Counted from the first letter of the stretch, positions 2,759 to 30,549 are shown. The stretch: DNA of 32,345 nt from Gammaproteobacteria bacterium (GCA_022826305.1 JAJDVC010000064.1:1-32345); one strand, 5' to 3'. Notes: a model not told the origin generated them from the sequence alone. A program made the numbers and translations.

Positions 2759-4363
2759 TCATTCCCGATTGTCCAGTTCCGCAACCCGATCCCACGTGGC
2801 ACTGCTTATCCCCGTATCGCGCAGCACGAACTTGCGGATCTTTCCGGTCGGTGTTTTCGGCAGGGCATCGACGATCTCGATGTACCGCGGAATCATGAAG
2901 TAGGCCATCCTCGGCTCCAGATAGCGAACAATCTCCTCCATGTCCGGATCGTGTCCCTCGCGCAGGACGATCACCGCCATCACCTCCTGCTCGGTGTCTT
3001 CCGAGTCCACTGGGATCACGGCGCATTCCAGGACGCCGGGATGACTGTTGATCTCGTATTCGACCTCCATTGAGGAAATGTTCTCGCCCCGACGCCGGAT
3101 AGCATCCTTGATGCGGTCGACGAAATACAGGTTTCCCCGTGCATCGCGCATCATCATGTCTCCGGTATGCATCCACAGGTTGCGCCAGGCCGAAGTGGTC
3201 CATTCGGGGTGGTTCCAGTACCCGTTGGTCATGATCCAGGGCTCCCTTGCGCGTACCAGGGCCTCCCCGGGCACGCCCGGCCCGACCTCCTGGTCGTGTT
3301 CGTCGACAATGCGTACTTCGTAGCGATCCTCCGCCACCTTTCCGCAGGAACGGTTGTCGACGAGGTCGAATCCCGACCGGGTGGGACAGTTCATTTCCGT
3401 TCCGCCCCATGTCGTGGAGACCCGGCAACCGAACCGTGTCTTGAAATCCTCCACCTCCGGAATCAGCGGCACCATCAGTACGCGTTCAAGCGTATTGTCA
3501 CGATCCATCTCCAGCACCGGCTGACGGTACAACATGTTCGCCATCGCCCCGAGCAGGAACGTCGTGGTGACGCCATGGTCAACCACATCCTGCCAGAACC
3601 TGCCGGCGCTGAAAGTCCCGGAAAGCACCGCCGTGCAGCCAACCAGGCAACTGGCGTAGATGACGGCGAACTTCCCCGCTATGTGGAACAGGGGCAAGGG
3701 AGCACAGTAGCGGTCGCTGTCGCGAAGATCGAGCATCTCGACGATCCCGCATGCATACTCCCAGACATGTGCATGGGTCAGGGTGACCCCTTTCGAGGGC
3801 CCGGTCGTCCCGGAGGTGTAGTAAACCCCCATCAGGTCATGATAGCACGGGCCGGGGCCCGTGTAGGGCTTGCCGTACAGGCTATCGAAACCGATGATCT
3901 CGAAATGCCGGGAGATCTGCCGGACGATATCCTGATCGTGGTCCGCAGGATCCGGCCAGACGACGATCCGTTCCAGATGCTCGAGCCGCCCGGCGAGCGC
4001 GACGAAACGGTCCAGGAACGCTCCGTCCACGATCAGGGTACGGGCCAGCGAATCGTTCACCAGATAAGCCAGCAGATTGCCCCGATAGTGCACGTTCACG
4101 GGAACCTCTATGCCGCCGAAAAGGGACAGGGCGCACCACACTCCGACATGATCCACGACATCCGGCAGCATGACCAGAACCGTGTCCCCGGCCTTGACGC
4201 CCCCGGACATCATGCCGCCAGCCAGCCGCCGCGCGCATTGATCCATCGCGGCATAGGTATGATTTCGCTGCGGAGTGACGATCCAGTTCCTGTCCGGAAA
4301 CTGCTCGACCCGCCGTTTCAATACGGTCGGAAAATCCTGTTCGGTCCTGCTGTCGGACAGCAT
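2759..4363 (-). CDS. acyl-CoA synthetase, CaiC-like
   Basis: ATP-dependent acid-CoA ligase of the ANL superfamily, activating a carboxylate through an acyl-adenylate. It has the nucleotide motif YYTSGTTGPSKG (residues 181-192 from the chosen start), the GGTEMN adenylate-binding motif, the TGD motif, the hinge DRIKDAIRRRGENIS and the terminal PTGKIRK with the catalytic lysine. At 534 residues it is normal length. The ATG at 4363 lies 7 bases after the stop of the upstream hydratase, so it is preferred over the ATG at 4408, which lies inside that gene. It is last in a four-gene operon. The pairing with a CaiD-like hydratase suggests a carnitine- or crotonobetaine-like substrate, by analogy with CaiC. 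A different short branched or betaine-type acid is equally possible. Confidence 0.9.
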   Translation of the reverse strand: MLSDSRTEQDFPTVLKRRVEQFPDRNWIVTPQRNHTYAAMDQCARRLAGGMMSGGVKAGDTVLVMLPDVVDHVGVWCALSLFGGIEVPVNVHYRGNLLAYLVNDSLARTLIVDGAFLDRFVALAGRLEHLERIVVWPDPADHDQDIVRQISRHFEIIGFDSLYGKPYTGPGPCYHDLMGVYYTSGTTGPSKGVTLTHAHVWEYACGIVEMLDLRDSDRYCAPLPLFHIAGKFAVIYASCLVGCTAVLSGTFSAGRFWQDVVDHGVTTTFLLGAMANMLYRQPVLEMDRDNTLERVLMVPLIPEVEDFKTRFGCRVSTTWGGTEMNCPTRSGFDLVDNRSCGKVAEDRYEVRIVDEHDQEVGPGVPGEALVRAREPWIMTNGYWNHPEWTTSAWRNLWMHTGDMMMRDARGNLYFVDRIKDAIRRRGENISSMEVEYEINSHPGVLECAVIPVDSEDTEQEVMAVIVLREGHDPDMEEIVRYLEPRMAYFMIPRYIEIVDALPKTPTGKIRKFVLRDTGISSATWDRVAELDNRE

Positions 4364-4370
4364 GGCAGGG

Positions 4371-5177
4371 CTACCTGCCCCGGAAATCCGGTTTGCGTTT
4401 TTCCGCAAAGGCCGCCAGCGCCTCGCCGTAGTCTTCCGTGTAGATCAACGTCGCGATGGTCTGCTTCTCCAGATTGAGCGCACCCTCGAAATCCGCCTCG
4501 ACGGACTGGGTGACCATGCGCTTGTGATGCATCACGGACAGGGGTGCCCGGGAAAGGATTACCTGCGCCAGCCTGAGTGCCTCAGCCTCCTCCTCACCGA
4601 GGGGAACCAGCCTGTTGACCAGCCCGATCCGGTAGCCCTCCCCGGCGTCGATGAATTCTCCGGTAAGCATCAGTTCCCTGGCCCGGTTGAGCCCGACGAT
4701 CATCGGCAGCAGCTTGGTAGCACCGCCCGTGATGGTCATGCCGGCATTGGATTCGGGAAATCCGAACACCGCGTTTTCCGCCGCCACGATCAGATCACAG
4801 TCGATTGCCACCTCGAAGCCGCCGCCCACCGCATACCCACGCACGGCGGCAATCACCACCTTCGGCGCCCTGCGGATAATACGCGGAATTTCCTGCAGGT
4901 TTTCCGTGATGTCCTCGATGATATCCAGGACCGGATGAATCTCGCCGCTCCGGACCAGGGGATATTCGGCCATGGCTACCTTCAGATCGTCCCCGGCGCA
5001 AAACGCATCGCCGACGCTGGAAATGATGATCACCCTGACCCGGTCATCGGCCGATGCCTCCCTGAGCACGTCGACCAGGCGCCGGATTTCCTCGGCGTCA
5101 AACGCGTTCAGGATTTCCGGCTTGTTGAACCGGATCCATGCGATTCCGTCCTGTATCTCGTAGAGCAATCGCGCCAT
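4371..5177 (-). CDS. enoyl-CoA hydratase/isomerase family, CaiD-like
   Basis: Crotonase-fold protein of 268 residues that would hydrate an enoyl-CoA or dehydrate or racemise a hydroxyacyl-CoA. The oxyanion-hole segments are visible (FCAGDDLK near residue 60 and RGYAVGGGFE near 115), followed by FGFPESNAGMTITGGATKLL, whose glutamate occupies the usual catalytic region. The C-terminal AFAEKRKPDFRGR is typical of the family and close in style to carnitinyl-CoA dehydratase CaiD. It sits between a thioesterase (16-base gap) and the CoA ligase (7-base gap), so the three are almost certainly co-transcribed. The natural substrate cannot be fixed from sequence. A carnitine-like acyl-CoA is the leading guess. 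Confidence 0.9.
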   Translation of the reverse strand: MARLLYEIQDGIAWIRFNKPEILNAFDAEEIRRLVDVLREASADDRVRVIIISSVGDAFCAGDDLKVAMAEYPLVRSGEIHPVLDIIEDITENLQEIPRIIRRAPKVVIAAVRGYAVGGGFEVAIDCDLIVAAENAVFGFPESNAGMTITGGATKLLPMIVGLNRARELMLTGEFIDAGEGYRIGLVNRLVPLGEEEAEALRLAQVILSRAPLSVMHHKRMVTQSVEADFEGALNLEKQTIATLIYTEDYGEALAAFAEKRKPDFRGR

Positions 5178-5193
5178 TGCCGATTCCTGCCGT

Positions 5194-5649
5194 CTAGGCC
5201 CGGTTCAGACTGATGCTCCGCCCGGCCCAGTCGGGCAGTTCGGACACTTCCGCGGCCTTCAGCCGCTCCTGCACCGAAGCCGGCATGGGAGTCACCTGTC
5301 CGCGCCCGGTGTCGTAATGCAGCAGCATGAATTCCCCAGTGGCGCACACGGTGCCGTCCACCTGCATCCTGTGCGCGAACCAGATCTTCCCGGGACCGGA
5401 TCCGAGTATCAGACTCTCGACCTCCATGGTGGCCGGGACGCGAACATCTTTCAGGTACCGCAGGTGCGTCTCCACCGTATAGATGGCGCATCCGGTATCC
5501 TCGAAATAGGGGATCCCGATGCCGAAATGCTCCTGTACCTTCCATGTCGCATTACTGAACGGCACAAGATAATAGGCCTCGTTCAGATGACCGTAGGCGT
5601 CCAGCCAGGCATCCTGCAAGGGTTCCTCGTGCAGTCTCAGGATCGTCAT
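5194..5649 (-). CDS. hotdog-fold acyl-CoA thioesterase
   Basis: A 151-residue single-domain hotdog protein. Residues 14-27 (AWLDAYGHLNEAYY) match the DxxGHxNxxxY active-site motif of the 4-hydroxybenzoyl-CoA thioesterase group, and HLRYLKDVRVPATMEVES matches the following beta-strand region. The same domain occurs fused to, or beside, carnitine 3-dehydrogenase, where it acts as a betainyl-CoA thioesterase; that gives a possible function but is inference. Its ATG overlaps the stop of the upstream GNAT gene by one base (TAATG), indicating translational coupling. It probably releases the free acid from the CoA ester made or modified by the hydratase and ligase next door. Confidence 0.85.
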   Translation of the reverse strand: MTILRLHEEPLQDAWLDAYGHLNEAYYLVPFSNATWKVQEHFGIGIPYFEDTGCAIYTVETHLRYLKDVRVPATMEVESLILGSGPGKIWFAHRMQVDGTVCATGEFMLLHYDTGRGQVTPMPASVQERLKAAEVSELPDWAGRSISLNRA

Positions 5650-6179
5650 TATTCAGGGCTCCGGAAGGATTTCTCCGCGATGCGGTTCCAGGCTTCCCAG
5701 GTCATGGCCCGGCCCGGATAGGACGGGCTGCCGAACGGCCAGCACGATGCGACCCAGTCCCGTACCGTCCGGTACAGATGATCGTCGAGCCCGGTTGTTG
5801 CCTCGGATTCCCGCACCCACATGGTGATTTCGACATCAAACCCGATTTTACGTGTCGGATAGATGTACAGACAACCCAGTACCCGGGATTCATCGAGGCT
5901 GGTGACCGTATAGGCAAAGGATGTCCGCATCTGGAACTCGCACTGGTGCCAGGCAAGCTCGATCAGGTTCTGTTCGCGTGTCAGGCCTTCCGGCCACTCG
6001 CCGTTTTCACGGAAAACCCGCTGCAGCCTTTCCCGGCTCGACATCACGGCCTCGTAATCCCTGTCGACATCCGCCATGACGAGCGGACGCAGGCGCATCC
6101 TCGGGGTTTCAAGCCGCTCGGGAACCCGGAAATCCCCGGGCACGATAGGCGGGTTATACACGGTCAGACCCCGTAACAC
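5649..6179 (-). CDS. GNAT-like acetyltransferase family protein
   Basis: First gene of the four-gene minus-strand CoA operon, 176 residues. The segment RLETPRMRLRPLVMADVDRD and the middle FAYTVTSLDESRVLGCLYIY have the layout of a GNAT N-acetyltransferase (beta1, then the strand preceding the acetyl-CoA loop). The classic Q/RxxGxG/A loop is not clear, so the fold assignment is moderate and catalytic activity uncertain. It has no signal peptide or membrane segment. Its stop codon overlaps the start of the thioesterase by one base. Co-translation with three CoA-ester enzymes suggests it acts on the same small molecule, for example acylating an amino group, or is a non-catalytic GNAT-fold protein. 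Confidence 0.65.
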   Translation of the reverse strand: MLRGLTVYNPPIVPGDFRVPERLETPRMRLRPLVMADVDRDYEAVMSSRERLQRVFRENGEWPEGLTREQNLIELAWHQCEFQMRTSFAYTVTSLDESRVLGCLYIYPTRKIGFDVEITMWVRESEATTGLDDHLYRTVRDWVASCWPFGSPSYPGRAMTWEAWNRIAEKSFRSPE

Positions 6180-6495
6180 GGGGAAATGTTGTCACGACCT
6201 GTCTCCATGCCGACAATCCGGAGGTTTGAACATGCGCAACGGACAGCCAGCCAGGACCTGACAGACAGCATGACCTGAATGCAAATGCCCTTCGTGAACG
6301 CATTCTCAGCCCCTGTCCGGAAAAACTGCAAGATATCATTCGTCTGTTCTCGTCAGGACACGATCATATCAGCATTGCATTTCGGCATCATGCCTGCCTG
6401 TGCAATGGCAGACCTGCCTCCGTTAGATGCCGTGCAAACCATCATGTCCAAGCTACGTGCTTGTGGCTGACGCAACACAGGCTTTTTCTGATTGG
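6180..6495. other. intergenic region, divergent promoters expected
   Basis: About 315 bases between the divergent GNAT operon and the intact Fic gene. Short open frames occur on the plus strand (for example one giving ALRERILSPCPEKLQDIIRLF near 6290-6350), but I do not recognise a family. Promoters for both neighbours should lie here, but I see no convincing -35/-10 pair. Confidence 0.4.
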
Positions 6496-7560
6496 ATGGA
6501 AACGGATGAGGTCTTGAACATAGGCACACTCAAGATCACCACTGAGGTTCTGGCGCTGATTTCCGATCTTGATCAATTCAAGGGGGCATGGCAGTTGATC
6601 GGGCGCATTGCGCCTGATCGGCTCTCAGACCTGCGTCGTGTAGCGACCATTGAAAGTACCGGTTCTTCCACACGGATTGAAGGAGCAAGGCTGACTGATC
6701 GTGAGGTTGAAAGGCTTTTGTCCGATCTTGAGATCAAGACCCTTGAAACGCGCGATGAGCAGGAAGTTGCCGGATATGCGGCAGTGATGGAAACGGTCCC
6801 TGCCAATCATGAATACATCGATCTGACCGAAAACCACATCATGCAGCTTCATCGCGACCTGCTGCAATTCTCCAGCAAGGATGAACGCCACCGCGGCGCC
6901 TACAAGACACTGCCGAACAATGTCGAGGCTTTCGGACCGGATGGGGAGAATCCGGGCGTTGTACTCGACACGGCTACCCCGTTCGATACACCGCGCCTTG
7001 TGCAAGCCCTGATCCGCTGGACGCAGGACGCCCTGGTCAAGGGAGAATACCATCCTCTGCTCGTTATTGCCGTGTTTGTGGTGGTGTTTCTGGCGATCCA
7101 TCCGTTTCAGGACGGCAATGGCCGATTGTCACGCATCCTGACGACGCTGCTCCTGCTGCGCGCCGGTTACGCCTACGTGCCATACAGTTCTCTGGAAAGC
7201 GTGATTGAACAGGACAAGAAAGGCTATTACCTGGCCTTGCGTCAGACGCAGGACACGATCCGCAATGATGAGCCGGACTGGCAGCCCTGGGTGGTTTATT
7301 TCCTGAGGTCCCTGCAAGCGCAAAAGCAGAAACTGGAAAAGAAGGTTGAGCGTGAACGACTTGCATTGGGTGATCTGCCGGAACTGTCGGCAAGTATTCT
7401 TGAGTTGGCGCGCGAGCGTGGCCGCATCACGATTGCAGACGCGACAAGGACCACTGGCTCAAGCCGGAATACGATCAAGGATCATGTCAGGGTGCTGGCA
7501 AGGGCGGGTCACCTGACCCGCCATGGTGCTGGCCGCGGTACCTGGTATTCGCTGTCATAG
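6496..7560 (+). CDS. Fic family protein with C-terminal winged helix
   Basis: Intact 354-residue Fic protein. The catalytic motif HPFQDGNGR is complete (residues 202-210) with the general-base histidine His202, so the usual reaction, transfer of AMP from ATP to a target hydroxyl, should be possible. An N-terminal SxxxEG motif (Ser58 to Gly63, STRIEG) matches the autoinhibitory helix of class II Fic proteins. The C-terminus (about 295-354) ends in a winged helix-turn-helix (ITIADATRTTGSSRNTIKDH), a common architecture. The ATG at 6496 is preferred over the in-frame ATG at 6427 because family similarity starts right after it; neither has a clear ribosome-binding site. It stands alone. Its target is unknown. 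Confidence 0.85.
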   Translation: METDEVLNIGTLKITTEVLALISDLDQFKGAWQLIGRIAPDRLSDLRRVATIESTGSSTRIEGARLTDREVERLLSDLEIKTLETRDEQEVAGYAAVMETVPANHEYIDLTENHIMQLHRDLLQFSSKDERHRGAYKTLPNNVEAFGPDGENPGVVLDTATPFDTPRLVQALIRWTQDALVKGEYHPLLVIAVFVVVFLAIHPFQDGNGRLSRILTTLLLLRAGYAYVPYSSLESVIEQDKKGYYLALRQTQDTIRNDEPDWQPWVVYFLRSLQAQKQKLEKKVERERLALGDLPELSASILELARERGRITIADATRTTGSSRNTIKDHVRVLARAGHLTRHGAGRGTWYSLS

Positions 7561-8182: not shown

Positions 8183-9694
8183 GTGAAAACGATCCTCCAC
8201 CACGCAGAAGCCGGACAATACGGACTGTTCATAGACGGTGATTATGTGCCAGGTTCCGCACGACAGTACGTTGACAGCATCAATCCTGCCCGCAACACGA
8301 CATGGTACACGATAACGGACGCCGGGCATGCGGATGTCGATCAGGCGGTCGCCGCCGCTGCCAGGGCACTCAGGAACCCGGCATGGCGCAGCCTGACCCA
8401 GACGGCCCGGGGCGGGCTGATCCGCAGGCTGGGAGACCTGCTTGCCGTTCACGGCGAACGGCTTGCGGAAATAGAAACCCGGGACAACGGCAAGCTGATC
8501 CGGGAAATGCGCGCGCAGATGGCGAGCCTGCCGGATACCTACTACTACCATGCCGGAATGGCCGACAAGCTGACCGGGGAAACGATACCCGTCAACAAGA
8601 CGGACACCTTCAACTTCACCCTGCGCGAACCGATCGGTGTGGTCGCCATCATCGTTCCCTGGAACTCTCCGCTCTACCTGCTGTCCAGCGTTCTGGCCCC
8701 CTGCCTCGCCGTCGGCAACACGGTCGTGGTGAAACCTGCCGAGAACACCACCGCATCAACGCTTGAATTCGCCGCACTGGTCCGGGAATCCGGCATCCCG
8801 GACGGCGTTTTCAACGTGGTTACCGGGCTCGGAGAGACGGCGGGAGAGGCCCTGGTCCGGCATCCCGGAATCAGCAAGGTCGCCTTCACCGGCGGTACGG
8901 AAACCGGGCGGAAGATCGCACGAAACGCGGCAGAGAATCTGGTACCGTGCACGCTGGAACTGGGCGGCAAGTCACCTCATGTGGTATTCGACGACTCGGA
9001 CCCGGAGCGCGCCGCCAGCGGCATAGTCTCCGGCATCTTCGCAGCAGGCGGGCAGACCTGCATAGCAGGCTCCCGCTGCTTCCTGCAGGAAGCCATATAC
9101 GACACCGTGCTCGACCTGCTGGTGCAAAAGGCCCGGGCAGTGGTTGTTGGCGACCCGATGGACCCGCAAACCCAGCTCGGGCCTCTTGCCCTGCACAGCC
9201 AGCTCGACAAGGTGAAGGACCATATCCGGACCGCGAGGCAGGACGGCGCCACCCTTGTGACCGGTGGCCGGCAGCCCGTCGGAGAAGGCTGTGCAGAAGG
9301 CCTCTACATCGAACCGACCGTGTTTACCGAAGTCACCCGTGACATGCGGCTGGCGAGGGAGGAGATATTCGGACCGGTGCTGGCGGTCATGCCCTTCAGC
9401 GATGAAGCGGAACTGATCAGGAAGGCCAACGATACCGTGTACGGCCTGGCTGCCGGAATCTGGACCCGCGACATCGACAGGGCATTGCGTTTCGCCCGGG
9501 ATGTGGATGCCGGCACGATATGGATAAACACCTACCGCAACGCGTCGTTCCTGTCGCCTTTCGGCGGGTTCAAGCAAAGCGGCTACGGAAAGCACAATGG
9601 CATGGAGGGAATCCGCGAGTATTCCCGGCTCAAGAATGTTCTGGTGGACTATTCGGGACAGACCCCCGATCCCTTCGTGATGAAGCTCGGCTAG
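8183..9694 (+). CDS. NAD(P)-dependent aldehyde dehydrogenase
   Basis: Full-length 503-residue aldehyde dehydrogenase that oxidises an aldehyde to the acid. It has the general-base Glu259 in LELGGKSP, the catalytic Cys293 in GGQTCIAGSR, the cofactor motif FTGGTETGRK (235-244), the VPWNSPL segment and the C-terminal FGGFKQSGYGKHNG. The frame begins with GTG at 8183 without a strong ribosome-binding site. It is first of a plus-strand operon with an LLM oxidoreductase (19-base gap) and an alpha/beta hydrolase. Style is that of betaine- or semialdehyde-type dehydrogenases, but substrate cannot be read from sequence. Two roles are plausible: the last step of the local LLM module, or the missing alpha-ketoglutarate semialdehyde step of hydroxyproline breakdown. 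Confidence 0.93.
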   Translation: MKTILHHAEAGQYGLFIDGDYVPGSARQYVDSINPARNTTWYTITDAGHADVDQAVAAAARALRNPAWRSLTQTARGGLIRRLGDLLAVHGERLAEIETRDNGKLIREMRAQMASLPDTYYYHAGMADKLTGETIPVNKTDTFNFTLREPIGVVAIIVPWNSPLYLLSSVLAPCLAVGNTVVVKPAENTTASTLEFAALVRESGIPDGVFNVVTGLGETAGEALVRHPGISKVAFTGGTETGRKIARNAAENLVPCTLELGGKSPHVVFDDSDPERAASGIVSGIFAAGGQTCIAGSRCFLQEAIYDTVLDLLVQKARAVVVGDPMDPQTQLGPLALHSQLDKVKDHIRTARQDGATLVTGGRQPVGEGCAEGLYIEPTVFTEVTRDMRLAREEIFGPVLAVMPFSDEAELIRKANDTVYGLAAGIWTRDIDRALRFARDVDAGTIWINTYRNASFLSPFGGFKQSGYGKHNGMEGIREYSRLKNVLVDYSGQTPDPFVMKLG

Positions 9695-9713
9695 CTGACC
9701 GGGATGCGGGACG

Positions 9714-10772
9714 ATGAAGTTCTCCATCGCCGTCAACATGAATCGCTTCTCCCCCCGGACGGCAATGACCGATGTGGTGCGTAGCACCCTGGAGCTGGTC
9801 AGGATGGCCGACCAGGGCGGCTTCGAGACGGCATGGGCCTCGGAGCACCACTGCATCGAGATGACCATCGCACCGAATCCCTTCCTCCAGCTCACCTGCT
9901 GGTCCCAGCACACCTCCCGCATACGCCTCGGAACCGCCGTGATCTGCGCACCCTACTGGCATCCCATCCGGGCTGCCGAGGAAGCCGCGCTGGTGGACCT
10001 GTATTCCGGCGGCAGGCTTGAACTCGGCCTCGCACGCGGAGCCTTCCAGTACGAGTTCGACCGCATGGCCAGCGGTGTTTCACAGAAACTGGACGGCGGG
10101 GAATACCTGTACGAGATCCTGCCGGCGATCAAGGCCCTGTGGCGAGGAGACTACACGCATCAGGGGCGTTTCTGGCAGTTTCCGCGTGCAACGGCCGTAC
10201 CCAAGCCGATTCAGTCCCCCCATCCCCCCCTGTGGGTGGCGGCACGGGGCCAGGACACCTTCGACTGGGCGGTGGAAAACGGGCTCGGCGTGATGTCGAC
10301 GCCGCTGCAGAAACCGTTCGGTGAGGTGCTGGACCTGGCCAGGAAACTGGATCTGGCCACGGACCGCTTCCCGGACAGGAAACGTCCGCGCTGGCTGGTC
10401 CTGCGCAACACCTGCGTGTACGACAACCCCGACCAGTGGAGGATCCCGGTCCAGGCCGCCAGGCGATACGCCGCACAGTTCCAGAGCCTGTTCACGGCCA
10501 GGGAGGATGTGGTCAACGGGTTCCCCCGGGAAATCTCCCTGTCCGGTCTGGATCAGGCCGACCACTACAGCGATACCGGCATCTGGCGGAACATGATGTT
10601 CGGGACACCAGGGGAAGTCATCGAGAAACTCAGGGCGTACCGGTCGGCCGGCGTCGACCTGTTCTGCTACGGTGCGGATTTCGGCCTCGAAGAACAGGTC
10701 GCACGACGCTCCCTGGAGCTGTTCATCACCGAAGTCATGCCCGGCTTCGCACAGGATGACGCACTCCCATGA
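9714..10772 (+). CDS. LLM class flavin-dependent oxidoreductase
   Basis: A 352-residue bacterial-luciferase-like monooxygenase, which uses reduced FMN and O2. Family features are EHHCIEMTIAPNPFLQL (about residues 44-60), the IRLGTAVICAPYWHPIRAAE strand-loop and the LYSGGRLELGLARGAFQYEF region, followed by a C-terminal MMFGTPGEVIEKLRAYRSAG typical of the TIM-barrel end. Reduced flavin must come from a reductase that is not in this operon. The stop overlaps the hydrolase start by four bases (ATGA). Members act on aldehydes, terpenes, sulfonates or cyclic ketones (type II Baeyer-Villiger). Flanking by a lactonase-like hydrolase and an aldehyde dehydrogenase makes a ring-opening oxygenation attractive but unproven. 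Confidence 0.9.
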   Translation: MKFSIAVNMNRFSPRTAMTDVVRSTLELVRMADQGGFETAWASEHHCIEMTIAPNPFLQLTCWSQHTSRIRLGTAVICAPYWHPIRAAEEAALVDLYSGGRLELGLARGAFQYEFDRMASGVSQKLDGGEYLYEILPAIKALWRGDYTHQGRFWQFPRATAVPKPIQSPHPPLWVAARGQDTFDWAVENGLGVMSTPLQKPFGEVLDLARKLDLATDRFPDRKRPRWLVLRNTCVYDNPDQWRIPVQAARRYAAQFQSLFTAREDVVNGFPREISLSGLDQADHYSDTGIWRNMMFGTPGEVIEKLRAYRSAGVDLFCYGADFGLEEQVARRSLELFITEVMPGFAQDDALP

Positions 10773-11524
10773 GGCATCATGCGATCCAGTCCGGGTCAGG
10801 CCCCCGCGTCGTCCTCGTGCACGGCGTGGGCGGCAACCTTCGGAGCTGGGACGAGATCGTCGGCATCCTGGAAAAGCGGTTCAGTATCCTGCGATACGAC
10901 CTGAGGGGCCATGGATCAAGCGGGAACCCGCCGGGACCATGGACCCTGGACGACATGGTCTGCGACCTTCTGCAGGTCGTCGAAGCGGCCGGATGGAAGC
11001 AGTTCGCCCTGGCCGGATTTTCCCTTGGCGGCCTGATTGCCCAGGGATTCACCCTGAAGTATCCGCGAACCGTGCAGAGACTCGCCATCGTGAGCACAGT
11101 TGCCGGTCGCAGCGAGACCGATCGGCGCAAGGTGGCAAGGCGACTGTGCAATCTGGAGCAGGATGACCTGCAGGCCAATATCGAACCGGCCATGGAGCGC
11201 TGGTTCACGCCGGAATTCAGGCGTTCCTGCCCTGAAAAGGTGGCGGCACGCATTCGCACCCTGCGCTCGAACGACCCGCAGGGGTACCTCAACGCCTACC
11301 GGGTGTTTTCGCTTGGCGACCTGGGCAGGTTCCTGCACCGGATCAGTTGCCCGACGCTTGTCATGACCGGAGAACACGATCCCGGTTCCAGCGTGCACAT
11401 GGCACGCTACATGCATGAGCAGATTGCCGGATCCCGGCTTGAGATCCTGGCTGGCCTCAGGCACAGCCTGCTTGTCGAGGCCCCGTCGGCAGTAGCCGGG
11501 ATACTCGATGATTTCCTGTCGTGA
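10769..11524 (+). CDS. alpha/beta hydrolase, enol-lactonase-like
   Basis: A 251-residue alpha/beta hydrolase. The oxyanion segment VLVHGVGGNLRSW precedes the nucleophile elbow GFSLGG with Ser85. Asp204 in GEHDPG and His232 in LRHSLL complete the triad. RYDLRGHGSSG is the classic strand-4 motif. Length and motifs resemble 3-oxoadipate enol-lactonase (PcaD) and related esterases, so cleavage of a lactone or ester is likely. The ATG overlaps the LLM stop (ATGA), a sign of translational coupling and of a shared pathway. No signal peptide is present, so it is cytosolic. Confidence 0.9.
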   Translation: MRHHAIQSGSGPRVVLVHGVGGNLRSWDEIVGILEKRFSILRYDLRGHGSSGNPPGPWTLDDMVCDLLQVVEAAGWKQFALAGFSLGGLIAQGFTLKYPRTVQRLAIVSTVAGRSETDRRKVARRLCNLEQDDLQANIEPAMERWFTPEFRRSCPEKVAARIRTLRSNDPQGYLNAYRVFSLGDLGRFLHRISCPTLVMTGEHDPGSSVHMARYMHEQIAGSRLEILAGLRHSLLVEAPSAVAGILDDFLS

Positions 11525-12009: not shown

Positions 12010-12750
12010 CTACCAGCTTTCCACGGATGTACGCAGATCCACCTCGAATGACCAGCCAGTGGGTTTCTGCCGGTACAGGTTCCAGTAGGTCTCGGCCAGC
12101 GCATCGAGAGCGATGAAACGCTTCAGTTCGTCCTCATCCGGTTCATGGCCCATCCGGCTGAACCACTTGTCGCCCGCGATGCCGCCGTCAATGATCACAT
12201 GAGCCACGTGCAATCCCGCCGGACCGTATTCCTTCGCCATGGCCTGCGCCAGTGTTCGCAACGCCGCCTTGCCGGAGTTGAACGCCCCGAAACCCGCCCG
12301 ACCACGCAAGGAAGCACTGGCTCCGGTAAAGATCAGCGTCCCCTCTCCGGGAACCAGGCGACGGATGCACTCGCGTCCGAACAGGAAACCGCCGTAGCAC
12401 AGGACACGCCATGCCGCCTCGAAATCCTGTGCAGTCATGTCCCGGATCATCCCGGGAGTGCTGTTGCCGACATTGTAGACAGCGAGATCCAGGTCTCCGG
12501 AGCCTGCCTGCATAGCCGTCTCAAACAGCCCGGCCACCTGCTCTTCGGAGGTGGCATCGCATACCACCGGCGTTGCACTACCCCCTTCAGCCGCAATGAC
12601 CTCGGCCAGTGTTTCAAGCCTGGCAGGTGTCCTGCCCGCCATATAGACGTGATGTCCCCGGTTCGCAAAATGCCTGCACAAGGCGCCGCCGAGTCCACGC
12701 TCTGGTCCAACTCCCAGTACAATCGCCCGGGGTTTTCCGCCTGTTGTCAT
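12010..12750 (-). CDS. SDR family oxidoreductase with Phe in place of catalytic Tyr
   Basis: A 246-residue short-chain dehydrogenase/reductase fold. The nucleotide-binding motif is GVGPERGLG (residues 13-21), followed by AGRT after strand 2 and YNVGNS in place of the NNAG motif. The active-site serine region is TGASASLRG, but the normal YxxxK reads FNSGK (Phe157, Lys161), so the catalytic tyrosine is absent. The DNA codon is TTC, not a one-letter ambiguity. From memory, a subgroup of SDRs with 'HVAHVIIDGGI' in this position often lacks the tyrosine, so this may be a family trait rather than decay. The reaction is therefore uncertain. It is monocistronic, and its ATG lies in TTGTCATG on a clear frame. 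Confidence 0.8.
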   Translation of the reverse strand: MTTGGKPRAIVLGVGPERGLGGALCRHFANRGHHVYMAGRTPARLETLAEVIAAEGGSATPVVCDATSEEQVAGLFETAMQAGSGDLDLAVYNVGNSTPGMIRDMTAQDFEAAWRVLCYGGFLFGRECIRRLVPGEGTLIFTGASASLRGRAGFGAFNSGKAALRTLAQAMAKEYGPAGLHVAHVIIDGGIAGDKWFSRMGHEPDEDELKRFIALDALAETYWNLYRQKPTGWSFEVDLRTSVESW

Positions 12751-16960: not shown

Positions 16961-17379
16961 GGCCCGTATCGTCAGGACGAAGGTATGCCGTATGCCGAGA
17001 GCCCCCTGTACTGCCGTCTTCGTTGCCTGTCGGCATCAGACAGAGGGTTCCGACGACCCTGGAGGTGATCCCGGACAGGAACGCCCTTGCAGGGAGACAG
17101 GCCATCGTATCGAAAATGCATATACACTCAAGATGCTGAACAGGAGTGAATCTGTACAGCAGTACCGAATGGAAGCGATCAGCGATATTCCGCCGAACCT
17201 GCTGCATGAAGGTCCGCTGATCAGGGTGCAGTCCGGGCAGGTCGAAGAGGTGGTGGTGCGCGTACAGGCACCATGCAGCCGGATACTTCCGGGGGGATCT
17301 GAACTCCTGTTCAGGCTGTCATTGTTTACGGATCCGGAAGGTCTTTTGATCACGAGGCCCGTTTCTCCGGCCCGCTCGA
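16961..17379. other. gap without recognisable coding sequence
   Basis: About 420 bases between the ccoS relic and the permease relic. A long plus-strand frame runs through it into the DDAH gene, but its translation is low-complexity and family-less, so I read it as non-coding or as the eroded body of the permease gene. Confidence 0.4.
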
Positions 17380-17559
17380 ATAACCGGCGACAGGCGTACC
17401 AGCCCGTGGCGGATTTCGGCGATCTGCCTGATCGTCCGGCAGGAAACGTACGGAATCCACGAGCCGCTCGTGTTCGTGGGATTGATCTATCTGTGTCTGA
17501 CCGGTATCCTCGTTCTCGTGTTCCGCTACTTCGAAAAGCGGATTCCGAGAAGGGGCTAG
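17380..17559 (+). pseudogene. amino-acid ABC transporter permease relic (C-terminus)
   Basis: One plus-strand frame ending at TAG 17557-17559 reads ICLIVRQETYGIHEP, then LVFVGLIYLCLTGILVLVF and RYFEKRIPRRG. This is the last membrane helix and basic tail of HisM/ArtQ-type polar amino-acid permeases ('...TYrxFEvftxVAlIYLxltxxlxxlfRrLErr'). Nothing upstream in any frame resembles the rest of the protein. The stop lies 29 bases before the DDAH start, so the two were probably co-transcribed and the transporter was lost. Confidence 0.65.
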
Positions 17560-17588
17560 CTGCACGGACAGCACCGGACTGGCGACTG

Positions 17589-18386
17589 ATGACAAACCGT
17601 TCCTGCACATTCACCCATGCAATCATGCGGCTTCCGGGAGCGACAGTCGTCAACGGGTTGCGTGCGGTCGACAAGGGTGCGCCTGATCTTTCATCTTTCA
17701 GGCGTCACCATGGAAGCTATGTGGATGCGCTTCGTTCGACCGGAGCGATTGTCGAGGTACTGCCACCCCTTGAGGAATTTCCGGATTCGGTCTTTGTCGA
17801 GGACACCGCTCTGTGCCTGCCTGAAGGCGCAATTGTCTTGAGGCCGGGCGCTTCGTCCCGGACCGGAGAAGCCAGGGAGATCACACCACACCTCGCGAAA
17901 TACTACGACAAGGTCCATGTCATCGAATCACCCGGTTTCATTGAGGGCGGAGATATCCTGGTAACCGAAAGAGAGATTCTGGTCGGCCGCTCGGCCCGTA
18001 CCAACCGTGAAGGAATCCATGCCCTGAAGAGCATTGTTGCAGGATGGGGAGGCGCGGTCAGGGAAGTCCCGACTCCGCAGAACATCCTGCATTTCAAGAG
18101 CGACTGCTCACTCCTCGACGAGGAGACGATCCTGGCAACGCCACGGCTCTCCGCTTCCGGATGTTTCAGGGGATACCGTGTAATCCATACTGCGGAGGAT
18201 GAAGAGGCTTCGGCAAACACGGTCCGATTCAACAGCCTGGTGATCGTCCCGGCCGGATTTCCGAGAACCACCGAATATCTCGCGTCGCGCGGATTCAACG
18301 TCAGGATCGTAGAAAATACCGAAGCAGCAAAGCTCGACGGGGGAATGTCCTGCCTTTCCCTCAGGTTCTCCCTTCCTGCTGACTGA
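17589..18386 (+). CDS. dimethylarginine dimethylaminohydrolase (DDAH)
   Basis: A 265-residue guanidino-modifying enzyme that hydrolyses N-omega-methylated arginines to citrulline and methylamine or dimethylamine. Family residues are in place: FVED (69-72), EGGD (119-122), His168 in ILHFKSDCS and the nucleophile Cys255 in GGMSCLSLRF near the C-terminus. Length fits bacterial DDAH (about 254 residues). The ATG at 17589 is chosen because similarity starts at once (SCTFTHAIMRLPG); the open frame continues upstream to 16992 but without homology. It follows the permease relic by 29 bases. A related arginine-deiminase-superfamily activity cannot be excluded, but the spacing and motifs favour DDAH. 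Confidence 0.88.
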   Translation: MTNRSCTFTHAIMRLPGATVVNGLRAVDKGAPDLSSFRRHHGSYVDALRSTGAIVEVLPPLEEFPDSVFVEDTALCLPEGAIVLRPGASSRTGEAREITPHLAKYYDKVHVIESPGFIEGGDILVTEREILVGRSARTNREGIHALKSIVAGWGGAVREVPTPQNILHFKSDCSLLDEETILATPRLSASGCFRGYRVIHTAEDEEASANTVRFNSLVIVPAGFPRTTEYLASRGFNVRIVENTEAAKLDGGMSCLSLRFSLPAD

Positions 18387-18599: not shown

Positions 18600-19160
18600 A
18601 CATGACCCGAAAATCAACCGTGCGATCCGGGATGATTTCCAGAAATCGGGCTACATGATCTGTTGTTCATTGATGCCTCGGGAATCAAGGTGGGCAGGAA
18701 CCTGTTCGAGCGGACGAGCAAGGACTGTAACGGCACCAGTGCTGCTGGCTGCACCAGACGTTCCCGGAAGGTCTCTGGTCGGCAGACCGGTTGCAGCCGG
18801 GCGGCGGGCGGGTGACACTGAACCGGCGCAAGCTCCTGCACTGGACCCAGGGGATGATTCCGGGGAGACAATGCCTGCTGCAAGGGTACCCTGATCCGGG
18901 CATTCAGGGAGCGGGGGCGGGACTATTCGATCAGCCTGGCCCATGACGGCTGGCGCAGGCCCGTGCCGGAACAGCTTGAGGGACTTCCTGCTCCGGCATG
19001 GCGGAGGCAGCCAGCTTCGCGAGGTACCAGCCCGGTGGCCGGGAGCGGATGCGGCATGCAGCGGAATGATTGCAACCCGTGGATCACATGTGAAAATCGA
19101 CAGGAACTTCAGACCGGATTACCGGTATCGCAAACACCCTGCCTCCTCTCCATGATTTCA
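18600..19160 (+). pseudogene. DDE transposase relic, IS1380-like
   Basis: Several plus-strand frames together give a transposase core: LFIDASGIKVGRNLFERTSK (from about 18662), EGLWSADRLQPGGGRVTLN (about 18765), DNACCKGTLIRAFRERGRDY with SISLAHDGWRRPVPEQLEGL (from 18867), then LREVPARWPGADAA and RNFRPDYRYR (19017-19130). The DASG and DNAxxKG aspartates fit the first two residues of a DDE triad. At least three frame changes and a stop disrupt it. Assignment to the IS1380 group is from remembered motifs. I could not find terminal inverted repeats. Confidence 0.6.
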
Positions 19161-19424
19161 CAGCTACGATCTGGTGGGCGATCGCGGCCTCGAGATCGAC
19201 ATGAACTGCGTAATGCGCATCTTGAGGGAAACAAGGGAAACAGTCAGGTACAATGGATTGCATGCGAATTTCCGGCAACTGCACGACCGGCCAGACTGTG
19301 CCCGAAAGCAGGACGGCTCTACCAGATGATTCTTGAAGCCCATCAGCCGGCACACATGACCGGAAAGGCCGGAGGCGTTGACAGCGGACTGCCGGGGAAC
19401 CGGATCGGGGTTCCGATGTCGCAA

Positions 19425-19900
19425 ACCCGATCAAGCCGGAAATCACCGGCAGAAGACTCTGGCCGTTGCGGGACCGCGATCTTCCGGGGATGCATCGGGC
19501 GATCCTGCACACCCTTTCCCGGGTCGGCCTGTCAGACTGCGCCCGGAACGGTGGTCGATACCGTTACCCGGCCCGTCGGAAAGCGGAAGACGTCATTATC
19601 CGGCTTCCAGTGCGGATTCACGCTACACGGCCAGAAACCCGGTCATGAGATGGTCCTGAGCGGCCCCAGGACTGGCATGAGGTCCGGAGGCGCCTCTCCA
19701 GGCATCCTCGATACGGAAACACGGCAGTGTCGGAGATCGACGCTGAAGGATCTGCATGATGCAGCACGACTGGTCGATGTGCTGGACAACATCCATTTCT
19801 TCAGCGGGCTGATGACTGCCGTGGACATGCCCGACGAGCAAACGCTGAACATCAACACGGCCTGCGCCTGCCTGAGCGACCCCATCAGGCATGGAGGATC
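19425..19900 (+). pseudogene. MttB-family methyltransferase relic
   Basis: Two plus-strand frames spell the N-terminal third of a trimethylamine/glycine-betaine:corrinoid methyltransferase. The first (19430-19600) reads ITGRRLWPLRDRDLPGMHRA with ILHTLSRVGLSD and then EDVIIRLP. After a shift at about 19610 the second (19616-19886) reads FTLHGQKPGHEMVLSG, GGASPGILDTETRQCRRSTL, DLHDAARLVDVLDNIHFF and MPDEQTLNINTACACLS. These match MttB's 'FTLHaRdPerdv...GP..gpp.v.Dle.G..r..t..D..d..rLvdaLdNIhf'. The C-terminal two thirds is missing, replaced by the start of the next gene at 20076. No pyrrolysine codon can be assessed because that region is gone. Confidence 0.75.
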
Positions 19901-20075
19901 CGGATGCGGCCGAAGCCGCACGCTCCTCGATAGTGGCCCCGACCCGGGTCTCGGAATCCGCACGGAGAAAGGACTGGAAATGGTGCCTGGACACCGCATC
20001 GCGATCGGTTCCGCAGGAACGGATTTGCAGGTCGATGGAACAACTTCGAATGCATCACAATAGAACAGTTCGCTG

Positions 20076-21075: not shown

Positions 21076-22077
21076 TCAGTTCAGCAGGAACCCGTGGGCA
21101 TACGGGTCGCGCTCGTCGATAATGATGCGGTTGTGACCGGTAATCCTCGCCCATCCCCTTATTGTCGGGATGATTGCGTCCCGCCCGCCGATCCGGGTAC
21201 GGGCTGTCGGGCAGCCTGTAAAGAGGCTTCCGATAATGCTTTCGTGGACGAATTCCTGGCCAATGGAGAGCTCCCCCCTGGCAACCAGTTGCGCCATGCG
21301 TGCACAGGTGCCGGTTCCGCACGGCGAACGGTCGATTCCCCGGTCGCCGTAGAGCACGACGTTGCGCATGTCCGCCTCGGGGTGTCTGGCCTCGTCCGTC
21401 CACATGACATGGCTGACGCTGCGGATCGTGTCATTCACGGGATGAACGAATTCCGCCTGGTCATTGACCAGGCGACGGATTGCCGGACTGTAGCGGCGGA
21501 TGGTATCCACATCGAATACGTCGAGACCGGGGTAATGCGTCTGGGGCTCGACGATTGCATAGAAATTGCCGCCGTAACTGACATCCAGTGTCACGACACC
21601 CAGATCCGGCACATCCACCTCAAGCCCGGTCGTATGAACAAAGGCGGGCACATTGGTCAGCGTCACGGATTCGATGAACCGGCCCGACTGCTCGTAACGC
21701 GTTTCCACCGGCCCGGCCGGCGTATCCAGCTTCAGCAAGCCCGGGGTCTTCGGCACCACCAGCTCCGATTCCAGTGCAACGGTTACCGTCCCGATGGTGC
21801 CGTGTCCGCACATCGGCAGACAGCCACTGACCTCGATGAACAGGACTCCCAGGTCATGCTCTGGTTCGGTGGGCGGATAGAGAATGGAGCCGGACATGGC
21901 GTCGTGGCCGCGCGGCTCGAACATCAGTCCCGTGCGAATCCAGTCGTATTCGGAGAGAAAGTGCTGGCGCATCTCGCTGAGGGATTCCCCGTCCAGTGGC
22001 GGCGGATTGCTGATCACCACCCGGACCGGGTTGCCGCACGTATGGGCGTCAATGCATTTGAAGGTTGTTGCAGGCAT
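21076..22077 (-). CDS. 4-hydroxyproline 2-epimerase (proline racemase family)
   Basis: A 333-residue proline-racemase-fold epimerase interconverting trans-4-hydroxy-L-proline and cis-4-hydroxy-D-proline. Both catalytic cysteines are present: Cys90 in MCGHGTIG and Cys253 in SPCGTGTCARM, so it is an epimerase rather than a dehydratase (which would have Thr at the second site). The following genes in the operon are the D-hydroxyproline oxidase and the deaminase, which fix the substrate. It is the last gene, 186 bases after the oxidase stop, a gap that may hold its own promoter. The ATG at 22077 opens straight into the family start (KCIDAHTCGNPVRVV). Cytosolic. Confidence 0.93.
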   Translation of the reverse strand: MPATTFKCIDAHTCGNPVRVVISNPPPLDGESLSEMRQHFLSEYDWIRTGLMFEPRGHDAMSGSILYPPTEPEHDLGVLFIEVSGCLPMCGHGTIGTVTVALESELVVPKTPGLLKLDTPAGPVETRYEQSGRFIESVTLTNVPAFVHTTGLEVDVPDLGVVTLDVSYGGNFYAIVEPQTHYPGLDVFDVDTIRRYSPAIRRLVNDQAEFVHPVNDTIRSVSHVMWTDEARHPEADMRNVVLYGDRGIDRSPCGTGTCARMAQLVARGELSIGQEFVHESIIGSLFTGCPTARTRIGGRDAIIPTIRGWARITGHNRIIIDERDPYAHGFLLN

Positions 22078-22190
22078 GGTTCAGTCGCTCAGGTTGCCGC
22101 TCGGTACACGAACTGTCCGCGCTTCACTTTTCCGGTACCGCACACATCGCGCACTGGAGCATGCGTGAATACTACACCAAATCATGAAAC

Positions 22191-22208
22191 GGCCGGTACT
22201 CGACCGGC
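22191..22208 (-). terminator. small hairpin between oxidase and epimerase genes
   Basis: GCCGGT and ACCGGC (22192-22197 and 22203-22208) form a 6-bp stem with an ACTCG loop. On the minus strand it is followed by CGTTTCATGATTTGG, only weakly T-rich. It could attenuate read-through from the oxidase gene into the epimerase gene. Confidence 0.25.
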
Positions 22209-22263
22209 ATGACTTCTACCTGCACGATTCCCGGCCATGCCGGCCTGGGCGCCGCGAAAAGCA

Positions 22264-23517
22264 TCAATTGAAGCGCGAAATCGAAAAAGGAGCGGGATCC
22301 AGCCCTGTAGAATCTCCGCAAACCATGCAGGCGATCAGTCTGCCGGTCGTGGCAGCCATGGTCAGACCGTAATGGCCGTGACCGAATGCATGCCAGGCAT
22401 TGGACATGCGCCGGGAAGGGCCGATGACGGGTACGGAGTCCGGTGTCGCGGGGCGATGCCCCATCCACCGGGTTCCATCCCGGTCATCAAGCGCCGGCAG
22501 ATAACGGCGTGCAATATCCACCAGCCTGTCGCAACGACTCCAGTCCGGTTTCGCACGAAGTCCCGCAAACTCGGCCGTACCGCCGATCCGCAGACCGTTC
22601 CGGATCGCACTGATGACAAACTTCTCTTCGCCGAAGATCACCTGCCGCTCCAGTACGACCCCGGGACTCGGCAAGGTGGTGTTGTATCCACGTTCGGATT
22701 GCAGCAGGACCCTCTCCCCCAGCTGTCGACAGAAGGGTTCCGACCATGCCCCGGCGGCGATGACGACACGCTCGACCGGAACACTGCGCCCGTCACCCAG
22801 TTCAAGAGCGCCGACCTGCTTCCCGGATGTGCGCAGTGATGCCACCCGCTCCCTCTCCATCCTCCCTCCGGAGCGGATGAAGCAGTCGGCCAGCCCCCGG
22901 GCAAAGGCGTGCGGATCCGTGGTATTGCACCAGTCAGGCGTATACCAGCCGCACTCCACCTGCTCCAGGGCCGGTTCCATCCGCCTGATGTCATCCGCGC
23001 CGAGCTCCTCCATCCGGACACCCTGGTCGGACCTGATCCGCCATTCCGCCCGGTCCCTGCAAAAGGCCGCATGCGTGCGGTAGACGGTCAGTGCGCCCCT
23101 TTCGGTGAACAGGGACTTCAGCCCCGCCCGCCCGACCAGTTCACGAGTATCCGCCAGACCGGGCTGAAGCAGGGACGACAGGGCCCGTGACAGCCGTTCG
23201 ACCTCGCTGCACCTGCCCGCACGCACGAAACGCCACAGCCAGGGAATCATGGACGGGAAATGCCCTGGCCGCACGGATAGCGGACCGCAGGAATCCAGCA
23301 GCCACCCGGGCACCCTGCACAGGACCCCGGGCACCGAGGCTGGCACCACATCGGCGAACCCGAATCCTCCCGCATTGCCGAAAGAGGTCATGCTGCCCGG
23401 GGGCTCGGGATCATACAGCGTTACCTGGAAACCCCGGTCCAGCAACCGGATACCGCAGCAGATGCCGATGATCCCGGCGCCGATCACTGCACATTCCCCT
23501 GTCCCGGCAGCCGACAT
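22264..23517 (-). CDS. FAD-dependent D-amino-acid (D-hydroxyproline) dehydrogenase
   Basis: A 417-residue DadA-like flavoprotein. The dinucleotide-binding GAGIIGICCG (13-22) is followed by GNAGG, and the C-terminal GHRPATPDSVPVIG with HAFGHGHYGLTMA is the second FAD motif of the D-amino-acid dehydrogenase/glycine oxidase group. In context it oxidises cis-4-hydroxy-D-proline to 1-pyrroline-4-hydroxy-2-carboxylate, passing electrons to the quinone pool or a carrier. Start at 23517 is 16 bases after the deaminase stop, so the pair is co-transcribed. No signal peptide; probably peripheral to the inner membrane. A general D-amino-acid role is possible if the operon context is misleading. Confidence 0.9.
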   Translation of the reverse strand: MSAAGTGECAVIGAGIIGICCGIRLLDRGFQVTLYDPEPPGSMTSFGNAGGFGFADVVPASVPGVLCRVPGWLLDSCGPLSVRPGHFPSMIPWLWRFVRAGRCSEVERLSRALSSLLQPGLADTRELVGRAGLKSLFTERGALTVYRTHAAFCRDRAEWRIRSDQGVRMEELGADDIRRMEPALEQVECGWYTPDWCNTTDPHAFARGLADCFIRSGGRMERERVASLRTSGKQVGALELGDGRSVPVERVVIAAGAWSEPFCRQLGERVLLQSERGYNTTLPSPGVVLERQVIFGEEKFVISAIRNGLRIGGTAEFAGLRAKPDWSRCDRLVDIARRYLPALDDRDGTRWMGHRPATPDSVPVIGPSRRMSNAWHAFGHGHYGLTMAATTGRLIACMVCGDSTGLDPAPFSISRFN

Positions 23518-23533
23518 GGTCGGTCAGGTGCCG

Positions 23534-24418
23534 CTACGGCTGCAGGGACGCGGCGGCATTCCCGAGTGCTTCGTGCTGGTCGTGCGTCAGGGGCTGGACA
23601 GGACGGCGGCATTCACCGAGGTCATGGCCGAGCATGTTGCCGAGCGCCTTGACGCTCGGGTTGAACGGACCACGCCAGACGAAGTCATTGACCGGGAACA
23701 GGGTGCGCCACAGCGCAATGGCGTCCGTCCACCTGCCGGATGCACACAACGCATGCAGCGTCGCCGCCTGGACCGGGATGGCATTCGAGGTTCCCCAGAA
23801 ACACCCGGCCGCGCCCGCCATGAGACTGTGCAGCATGAGCGGGTCCGCGCCATTGAACACCCGGACCCCGGCGCAGACCAGCCGCTGGATGCGAAGAAAG
23901 TCCCCCGTACTGTCCTTGAGATAGCGGATATTCGGAATCTGCATGAGTCGGCATACGAAATCCGGATCGAGGTCTATCCCCGAGTGGACGGGAATGTTGT
24001 ACGCCATGATATCGACAGCAACGGAATCTGCCACTTTTTCGTAGTGCTCGAACGTTCCCTCGAGGGTCGGCCCCTCGAAGTAGGGAGGCAATACCAGCAG
24101 GCAGTCCGCCCCGAGATCCTCGGCGTGCCTGGCGTATTCGATCGTCTCCTCGGTCATGACGGCGGAAACATGGACAATCAGGCGGGCCTGGCCCGCCAGA
24201 TGCCTGGCCACGAGTGCGGTCAGGCGCAACCGTTCCGCGCGGGTCAGGAACGAGAACTCGCCGGTACCTCCGCAGACGCATATGATGTCCACGCCCGCTT
24301 CAAGCAGGTTATCGAGGTGCCGGGTTTGCCGACGCTCGTCTATCCTGCCGCCATCCTCCGTGAACACCGTGCAGATCGGGGTACAGACCCCGGTCATCAG
24401 GGTATCAGGATGATTCAT
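23534..24418 (-). CDS. 1-pyrroline-4-hydroxy-2-carboxylate deaminase, DapA family
   Basis: A 294-residue TIM-barrel aldolase-type enzyme. The Schiff-base lysine is Lys168 in YLKDSTGD, with Tyr140 (MAYNIP) and GGTGEFSFLT (50-59) completing the DapA/NAL active site. Beside an epimerase and a D-hydroxyproline dehydrogenase, the function is deamination of 1-pyrroline-4-hydroxy-2-carboxylate to alpha-ketoglutarate semialdehyde. It is first of the three-gene operon, with a strong Shine-Dalgarno site six bases before the ATG. The remaining step, oxidation of the semialdehyde to 2-oxoglutarate, needs an aldehyde dehydrogenase not found in this operon. Confidence 0.9.
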   Translation of the reverse strand: MNHPDTLMTGVCTPICTVFTEDGGRIDERRQTRHLDNLLEAGVDIICVCGGTGEFSFLTRAERLRLTALVARHLAGQARLIVHVSAVMTEETIEYARHAEDLGADCLLVLPPYFEGPTLEGTFEHYEKVADSVAVDIMAYNIPVHSGIDLDPDFVCRLMQIPNIRYLKDSTGDFLRIQRLVCAGVRVFNGADPLMLHSLMAGAAGCFWGTSNAIPVQAATLHALCASGRWTDAIALWRTLFPVNDFVWRGPFNPSVKALGNMLGHDLGECRRPVQPLTHDQHEALGNAAASLQP

Positions 24419-26663: not shown

Positions 26664-26687
26664 GTCGACCGGCAACTACCGGCCGAC
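26664..26687. terminator. imperfect hairpin at the convergent DUF1289/PhyH ends
   Basis: GTCG-A-CCGG and CCGG-C-CGAC pair around a CAACTA loop (one mismatch), overlapping the stop of the PhyH gene. There is no T-run on either side, so a rho-independent role is doubtful; it may shield transcript ends. Confidence 0.25.
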
Positions 26688-27476
26688 CGTAAAATCGTTC
26701 TTGCCGCATACATCCCTGCCACGCACCAGGAACAGGGGACGGCAGCCGTAGTCATGGCTGGCATTCTTCGCAGCCGTCCGCCGCCCGAGGGCATGGTCGT
26801 AATGACTGGTTGCCGGCATGAGCCTGACCACGAAGGCGGCGCGGCGGCGGTCCGTGAGATTGGGCCCCGAACCGTGGATCATGTACACGTCATGACAGGA
26901 AACCTGTCCGGCCCGGATAATCAGGTCCTCGGCTTCCGATTCATCGAAATGCTCCGAATCGCAAACATCGAAAATCGTATGGTCCTCCCTTTCCTCCCGG
27001 TGATGGGAATACTGTATCCGCCGCCTGTGGGATCCCGGGATAAAGCGCATGGGTCCGTTGTCGTGCGTCACGTCGTCCAGTGCTATCCATATGGTCATGG
27101 TCTCAAGGGGCAGGATCGGGTAGTAGTCGCTGTCCTGGTGCCAGGGCGTCCCCTTTCCCTGGCGGGCCGGCTTGCCGAAGATCGTCGTTCCCCAGAGAAT
27201 GATGTCGTCGCCGATCAGCTGTGCAGCCATATCCAGCAGGTCCGGGGTAGTGGCAAACCCGAACCATTCATTCGACCCCTTCACGCCCTGCGCACCGGGG
27301 TTTTCCAGGTGCGGACCAAGCAGAAAGTCCGAACCCAGCGCCGCATTGTCGCACAGCAGTCTTTCATAGGCCGCCAGCATCCGTTCCAGCAATGCGTCCG
27401 GCAGGCGGTAGTCGGGTACCAGATAACCCTTCTCCCGGTATGTATCGATCTCCTGTTGCGAAAGACGCGCTGTCAT
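26676..27476 (-). CDS. phytanoyl-CoA dioxygenase family oxygenase
   Basis: A 266-residue Fe(II)/2-oxoglutarate-dependent dioxygenase. The facial triad is His113 and Asp115 in TPWHQDSDYYP, with the distal His201 in MIHGSGPN. Arginines in the DRRRAAFVVRL stretch (about 210-219) would bind 2-oxoglutarate. GPMRFIPGSHRRR is the typical strand after the metal site. It would hydroxylate a small molecule at the expense of 2-oxoglutarate and O2. It follows hutH with a 27-base gap in the same operon, so its substrate may be a histidine or urocanate derivative, which would be unusual, or it may be a hitch-hiker. Ectoine-hydroxylase-like proteins are in this family, but specificity cannot be told. Confidence 0.9.
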   Translation of the reverse strand: MTARLSQQEIDTYREKGYLVPDYRLPDALLERMLAAYERLLCDNAALGSDFLLGPHLENPGAQGVKGSNEWFGFATTPDLLDMAAQLIGDDIILWGTTIFGKPARQGKGTPWHQDSDYYPILPLETMTIWIALDDVTHDNGPMRFIPGSHRRRIQYSHHREEREDHTIFDVCDSEHFDESEAEDLIIRAGQVSCHDVYMIHGSGPNLTDRRRAAFVVRLMPATSHYDHALGRRTAAKNASHDYGCRPLFLVRGRDVCGKNDFTVGR

Positions 27477-27503
27477 GATCGCCGCAAGCCGCTCATCGGA
27501 GCC

Positions 27504-30487: not shown

Positions 30488-30549
30488 GTGATCGGTCAGG
30501 GAAAACGGAACAGGCAGAGGCTGGGCCCCCGGAAAGTATCGTCCGGTGC

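Follow-up and report, generated by a model that had tools for sequence, protein, structure and literature searches.

A GNAT-like, thioesterase, hydratase and ligase gene unit from a Gammaproteobacterium: probably known parts in a new order, and no carnitine operon

Four minus-strand genes at positions 2759-6179 of the Gammaproteobacteria bacterium contig JAJDVC010000064.1:1-32345 raise the question of which acid, if any, their products would process together. This whole stretch of 32,345 nt, referred to here as the window, belongs to a draft genome of 3.03 Mb that is 91% complete, and its uncultured host is probably a member of the order Arenicellales. A first-pass annotation of the window had read the four genes as one operon and, from the likeness of two products to CaiC and CaiD, had proposed a carnitine-like acid as the substrate. 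We find that the unit is real and coherent and that none of the known operons matches it exactly. Rather than the carnitine operon, it is probably a set of familiar parts newly arranged, within a region for the catabolism of small nitrogen-containing molecules. The four genes are the following:

5649-6161, minus strand: GNAT-like protein, with a match to Acetyltransf_3 below cut-off; open reading frame from 6179
5194-5649, minus strand: 4HBT_2 hotdog thioesterase (TE), assigned with Pfam and NCBIfam; best solved relative 2hlj
4371-5177, minus strand: crotonase-family enoyl-CoA hydratase (ECH), with an ECH_1 domain and catalytic glutamates E122 and E142
2759-4363, minus strand: AMP-forming acyl-CoA ligase (LIG), with AMP-binding and AMP-binding_C domains; nearest NCBIfam model PRK06155

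The four reading frames did not arise by chance, since homologues of all four keep their frames in other genomes. On the minus strand, the open reading frames cover 5649-6179 (GNAT-like), 5194-5649 (TE), 4371-5177 (ECH) and, for LIG in its longest form, 2759-4408. Orthologues of LIG start at the ATG at 4363, which leaves a 7-base gap to ECH, and comparison with relatives points to a GTG start at 6161 and not at 6179 for the GNAT-like gene. The GNAT-like gene overlaps TE by 1 base and 16 bases separate TE from ECH, so that the spacing of 1, 16 and 7 bases given in the first-pass annotation is reproduced if LIG starts at ATG 4363. A pattern scan found no terminator-like site between the four genes on the minus strand; their reading as one unit is supported. 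The scan returned a single promoter-like and a single terminator-like match on this strand, both within the GNAT-like gene and in the number expected from shuffled sequence. The observation of four real genes in one tight minus-strand unit is thus confirmed, its weakest part being the label "GNAT-like".

Conservation of the gene order was followed in 109 genomes of the order (host included) for LIG and for the aldehyde dehydrogenase described below, and at 38 LIG loci from a GTDB-wide scan; open reading frames in distant loci were called by simple scripts, so the neighbour lists are approximate. The exact order GNAT-TE-ECH-LIG was present in no other genome searched, and the earlier statement that no described operon has exactly this order therefore holds literally. 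A LIG match at the threshold used was found in 17 of the 109 order genomes, again counting the host. ECH and LIG are adjacent at 22 of the 38 loci from the GTDB-wide scan (ECH-LIG at 12, LIG-ECH at 10), which argues that the hydratase and the ligase act together. The neighbouring ECH shares 74-79% identity with that of the window at the 12 ECH-LIG loci and 38-45% at the 10 LIG-ECH loci. A thioesterase adjoins LIG in genomes G000 and G010, in the latter as ECH-LIG-TE, and a different 4HBT_2 thioesterase lies close to LIG in G091 and G079; the pairing of a ligase with a thioesterase therefore recurs. The GNAT-like gene adjoins TE in G011, and this is the exception among its relatives: in the other order genomes and the three of the class that carry one, no TE, ECH or close LIG adjoins it. 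Absence of the order from all relatives had been named beforehand as grounds for abandoning the proposal; the full order is indeed found nowhere else, but its sub-units (ECH-LIG, this pair with TE, and GNAT/TE) recur. These comparisons suggest that TE and a GNAT-like gene were recently brought together with a conserved ECH-LIG pair to give the unit. Plasmid records were searched as well: where annotated among the 30 listed, their TE matches were mostly carnitine 3-dehydrogenase domains. LIG matches in such records remained below 46% identity, and the four-gene order was absent from the three plasmid clusters opened.

The classes of the three catalytic proteins and the state of the LIG and ECH active sites can be read directly from their sequences. 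The Pfam domains AMP-binding, AMP-binding_C, ECH_1 and 4HBT_2 all score well over their cut-offs, TE reaching 83.8 bits against 25.5 for 4HBT_2. LIG is an ANL-type enzyme by its AMP-binding and C-terminal domains, its core motifs and its catalytic lysine; the motifs YTSGTTGPSKG, GGTE, HTGD and PKTPTGKI are all present, and most of their positions are invariant among LIG orthologues. ECH has both glutamates expected of a crotonase-type hydratase, E122 and E142, and these too are invariant among orthologues. NCBIfam names none of the three above cut-off. The best model for LIG, the ATP-dependent acyl-CoA ligase family PRK06155 (NF004808), aligns over nearly the full length, yet gives 498 bits against a cut-off of 722; we know of no substrate recorded for this model. 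About 24 order genomes carry TE orthologues of 56-71% identity, which are found in several gene contexts and often adjoin a branched-chain-type ABC transporter. The earlier suggestion that the set could activate an acid, add water to its CoA ester or remove water from it, and then release the acid is consistent with the predicted classes of LIG, ECH and TE, whose catalytic residues are intact where tested.

Beside the four-gene unit lies an operon of the opposite strand (8183-11524), which comprises three genes:

8183-9694, plus strand: aldehyde dehydrogenase (ALDH), a linked partner outside the unit, whose orthologues of at least 70% identity lie close to TE
9714-10772, plus strand: luciferase-like flavin monooxygenase (LLM), with a Pfam Bac_luciferase domain; also a linked partner
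10769-11524, plus strand: PcaD-like alpha/beta hydrolase, with a 58% orthologue adjoining ALDH in G010; the third linked partner

ALDH orthologues at this level were found in only 3 of the 109 order genomes, each time within 5 kb of TE. Random placement of TE in 3 Mb would give a distance below 5 kb with an estimated frequency of about 3 per 1000 per genome, an estimate that is weakened by shared descent, though the arrangements differ between genomes. In G010, about 145 bases separate ECH-LIG-TE from a divergent amidase-ALDH-hydrolase set. G011 has a hydroxyproline-dehydratase-like gene, the GNAT-like gene and TE on one side of a gap of about 97 bases and a divergent amidase-ALDH-LLM set on the other. 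An LLM orthologue of 81% identity, partial, is present in G011, and one of 73% stands directly upstream of TE in G015, about 7 bases away (L126 8157-9650); both G015 matches are reported to contain a stop codon, reflecting either decay or sequencing errors. In the window, a Fic protein gene (6427-7560) and a GmrSD_N/HNH endonuclease gene (79-1173) flank the unit, the former at the position that the amidase takes in the relatives.

Clusters resembling this neighbouring operon are found elsewhere. Plasmids of Rhizobium (Rhizobium binae) and Thalassospira (Thalassospira marina) carry flavin reductase-ALDH-LLM-hydrolase-CMD clusters with the same ALDH-LLM-hydrolase order at 46-59% identity; in the window, by contrast, a flavin reductase was not observed next to the ALDH-LLM-hydrolase genes. 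In two relatives of the host's family, related ALDH-LLM-hydrolase clusters adjoin ABC-type transport genes. The order presumably resembles that of the trigonelline (Tgn) pathway, a likeness that concerns the neighbouring module and not the four genes. Literature searches on trigonelline and homarine gene clusters turned up no open paper that could be used for the genes. An LLM-ALDH cluster of Parasedimentitalea marina and those of two relatives within the order (G104 and G057) likewise combine a monooxygenase and ALDH with CoA-ester chemistry in the form of a CaiD-like hydratase, to which the Parasedimentitalea cluster adds a CaiB-type CoA transferase. They differ from the window in having another hydratase and other activating enzymes as well as a 3-hydroxyacyl dehydrogenase and BKACE; the four-gene unit contains none of these. 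Within the LLM-ALDH-CaiD-like-BKACE cluster of the P. marina plasmid (L092 3028-5151), the CoA transferase has 707 residues and its C-terminal part matches flavin reductase, a fusion that links monooxygenase and CoA chemistry.

The reading that we prefer, at somewhat below an even chance, is that LIG, ECH and TE form a CoA relay serving the neighbouring catabolic branch. The mechanism is proposed on account of the protein families. LIG would spend ATP to form the CoA ester of a small carboxylic acid, probably alpha,beta-unsaturated; ECH would hydrate this ester, or dehydrate a 3-hydroxy ester; and TE would then free the altered acid and CoA. The neighbouring branch (ALDH, LLM and hydrolase, in relatives the amidase too) would probably open and trim a nitrogen-containing, possibly cationic, ring compound, while the GNAT-like protein would be an accessory, probably without acyl-CoA binding. 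Our guess is that the acid is made or used by the neighbouring branch, with a ring-opened N-heterocycle as the substrate. A more far-reaching version, which we regard as improbable, is an undescribed Arenicellales-type pathway in which the ring-opening LLM, ALDH and hydrolase would pass an unsaturated nitrogen-containing acid to the relay and the degenerate GNAT-fold protein would be a new kind of accessory subunit.

The GNAT-like protein scores 20.3 bits against Acetyltransf_3, for which the cut-off is 25.4, and GNAT models match only three of ten homologues, all weakly. These ten homologues, of 163-179 residues in the aligned stretches, have GWHQ, SFAYTV and other motifs in common. The Q/R-x-x-G-x-G/A acyl-CoA loop after strand 4 is absent in all ten, the pattern producing one stray N-terminal match in one of them. 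Homologues were found in 7 of 100 order genomes at 50-64% identity, with one additional fragment, and in 3 of 369 class genomes. A profile search of the PDB with the family returned no relative, and a single-sequence model of low confidence (pLDDT 48) gave a beta-alpha-alpha-beta-beta-beta-alpha succession without the C-terminal strands. The protein is probably a degenerate GNAT-type protein that lacks transferase activity; the earlier idea that it acylates the product finds no support in a family that is short and lacks the loop at the expected position. A phage or viral origin was rejected, relatives not being found in viral contigs.

Several points weigh against the relay proposed for LIG, ECH and TE. 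Its substrate class and the direction of hydration are inferred. The three genomes with the ALDH-TE linkage belong to one family and are not independent, G010 is without LLM at its locus, and no LIG relative was found at the threshold used in G011, a genome only 72% complete. In the window itself, the Fic gene lies between the two modules. TE orthologues are mostly in other contexts, for example beside the branched-chain-type transporter. Lastly, the ECH-LIG pair occurs in many genomes without ALDH or LLM and with varied neighbours, and its own substrate may therefore be independent of ring cleavage.

This wide distribution speaks for another explanation, possible although on the unlikely side, in which ECH-LIG would degrade, on its own, a different acid that is unsaturated or of the guanidino/ureido type and the proximity of TE, ALDH and LLM here and in G010 is secondary. 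The recurrent neighbours of the pair in several lineages, namely Rieske oxygenase (8 loci), ureohydrolase (8), amidase (4) and DMT transporters (4), are in line with it. However, TE belongs to the same tight unit in both the window and G010, and two genomes retain the amidase-ALDH genes in divergent orientation.

The carnitine question was addressed by comparison with the cai operon of E. coli (caiTABCDE), which like the unit has an AMP-forming ligase and a crotonase acting on the CoA esters of an acid. LIG shares 29% identity with CaiC of E. coli, and the CaiC model, with a cut-off of 651 bits, gives it a score of 251. ECH shares 35% with CaiD, the same value as an unrelated crotonase of the host genome. 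None of the genes predicted next to the unit encodes CaiA, CaiB or CaiT, in place of which the unit has a thioesterase, and CoA_transf_3 genes are present on other contigs only; the lack of CaiA and CaiB had been correctly noticed in the first-pass annotation. A closer relative of CaiD, at 52% identity, is encoded on host contig C8 (L159) with an L-carnitine-dehydrogenase-like protein, BKACE, an acyl-CoA dehydrogenase and a different kind of CoA ligase. On contig C118 (L157), a carnitine 3-dehydrogenase (630 bits against a cut-off of 592) lies with BKACE and tricarboxylate-type transporter genes, and these two enzymes form the aerobic route known to lead from carnitine to betaine (PMC12482172). 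Since C8 and C118 carry carnitine-type clusters, the host probably handles carnitine by genes other than those of the unit. A carnitine operon by orthology was thus rejected, given the low identities to CaiC and CaiD and the better CaiD and carnitine dehydrogenase candidates elsewhere in the genome, and the carnitine-like acid suggested by these likenesses is not supported.

A carnitine function without orthology was also weighed. In this scheme, LIG would activate crotonobetaine or D-carnitine, ECH would give L-carnitinyl-CoA, and TE would free L-carnitine for carnitine 3-dehydrogenase and BKACE, the thioesterase standing in for the CoA recycling performed by CaiB in E. coli (PMC2131755). In NCBIfam, TE has a single relative, a distant one, namely the thioesterase domain of carnitine 3-dehydrogenase, and the host does possess the latter enzyme, above the curated cut-off and beside BKACE, on C118. 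TE resembles such domains and the stand-alone 4HBT_2 thioesterases of carnitine clusters in its 4HBT_2 family, at 31-41% identity, and in a D-x-x-GH-x-N type motif. It differs from them in standing alone and in belonging to an orthologous group of its own within the order, found in several contexts, and its identity to the thioesterase domain of the host's own carnitine dehydrogenase is only 31%. With this value, the distance of LIG and ECH from CaiC and CaiD, and the richer C8 cluster, we consider the scheme quite unlikely. Generic fatty or branched acid degradation by ordinary beta-oxidation paralogues gathered by chance, to which the very large families of the three catalytic genes and their lack of an NCBIfam name would lend themselves, is very unlikely, as acyl-CoA dehydrogenase, thiolase and hydroxyacyl-CoA dehydrogenase are all missing from the unit and as ECH-LIG adjacency across diverse lineages is more specific than chance gathering.

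Other genes of the window were noted in passing. Genes of the proline racemase family, D-amino-acid dehydrogenase-like and of the DapA family (21076-24418, minus strand) resemble a set for hydroxyproline degradation; in G001, of the same genus as the host, proline-racemase-family and D-amino-acid dehydrogenase-like genes share a contig (L123) with orthologues of TE and of the SDR gene at 12010-12750 of the window. A PhyH dioxygenase, an aromatic amino acid lyase and an amidohydrolase stand in a row at 26676-30625 and could concern histidine or histidine betaine. At 16992-18386, a FixG C-terminal Ig-like domain is apparently fused with a dimethylargininase-like domain. The gene at 18963-20063, which adjoins that of a YdjM-type membrane protein, matches the MTTB trimethylamine methyltransferase family partially and over a short length only.

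These results argue against a "carnitine" label for the widespread ECH-LIG pair, present at no fewer than 22 loci. If the relay is tied to ALDH and LLM, bacteria would have a further, CoA-dependent branch for degrading betaines or ring compounds that contain nitrogen, in an area of the organic nitrogen cycle where many genes lack an assignment.

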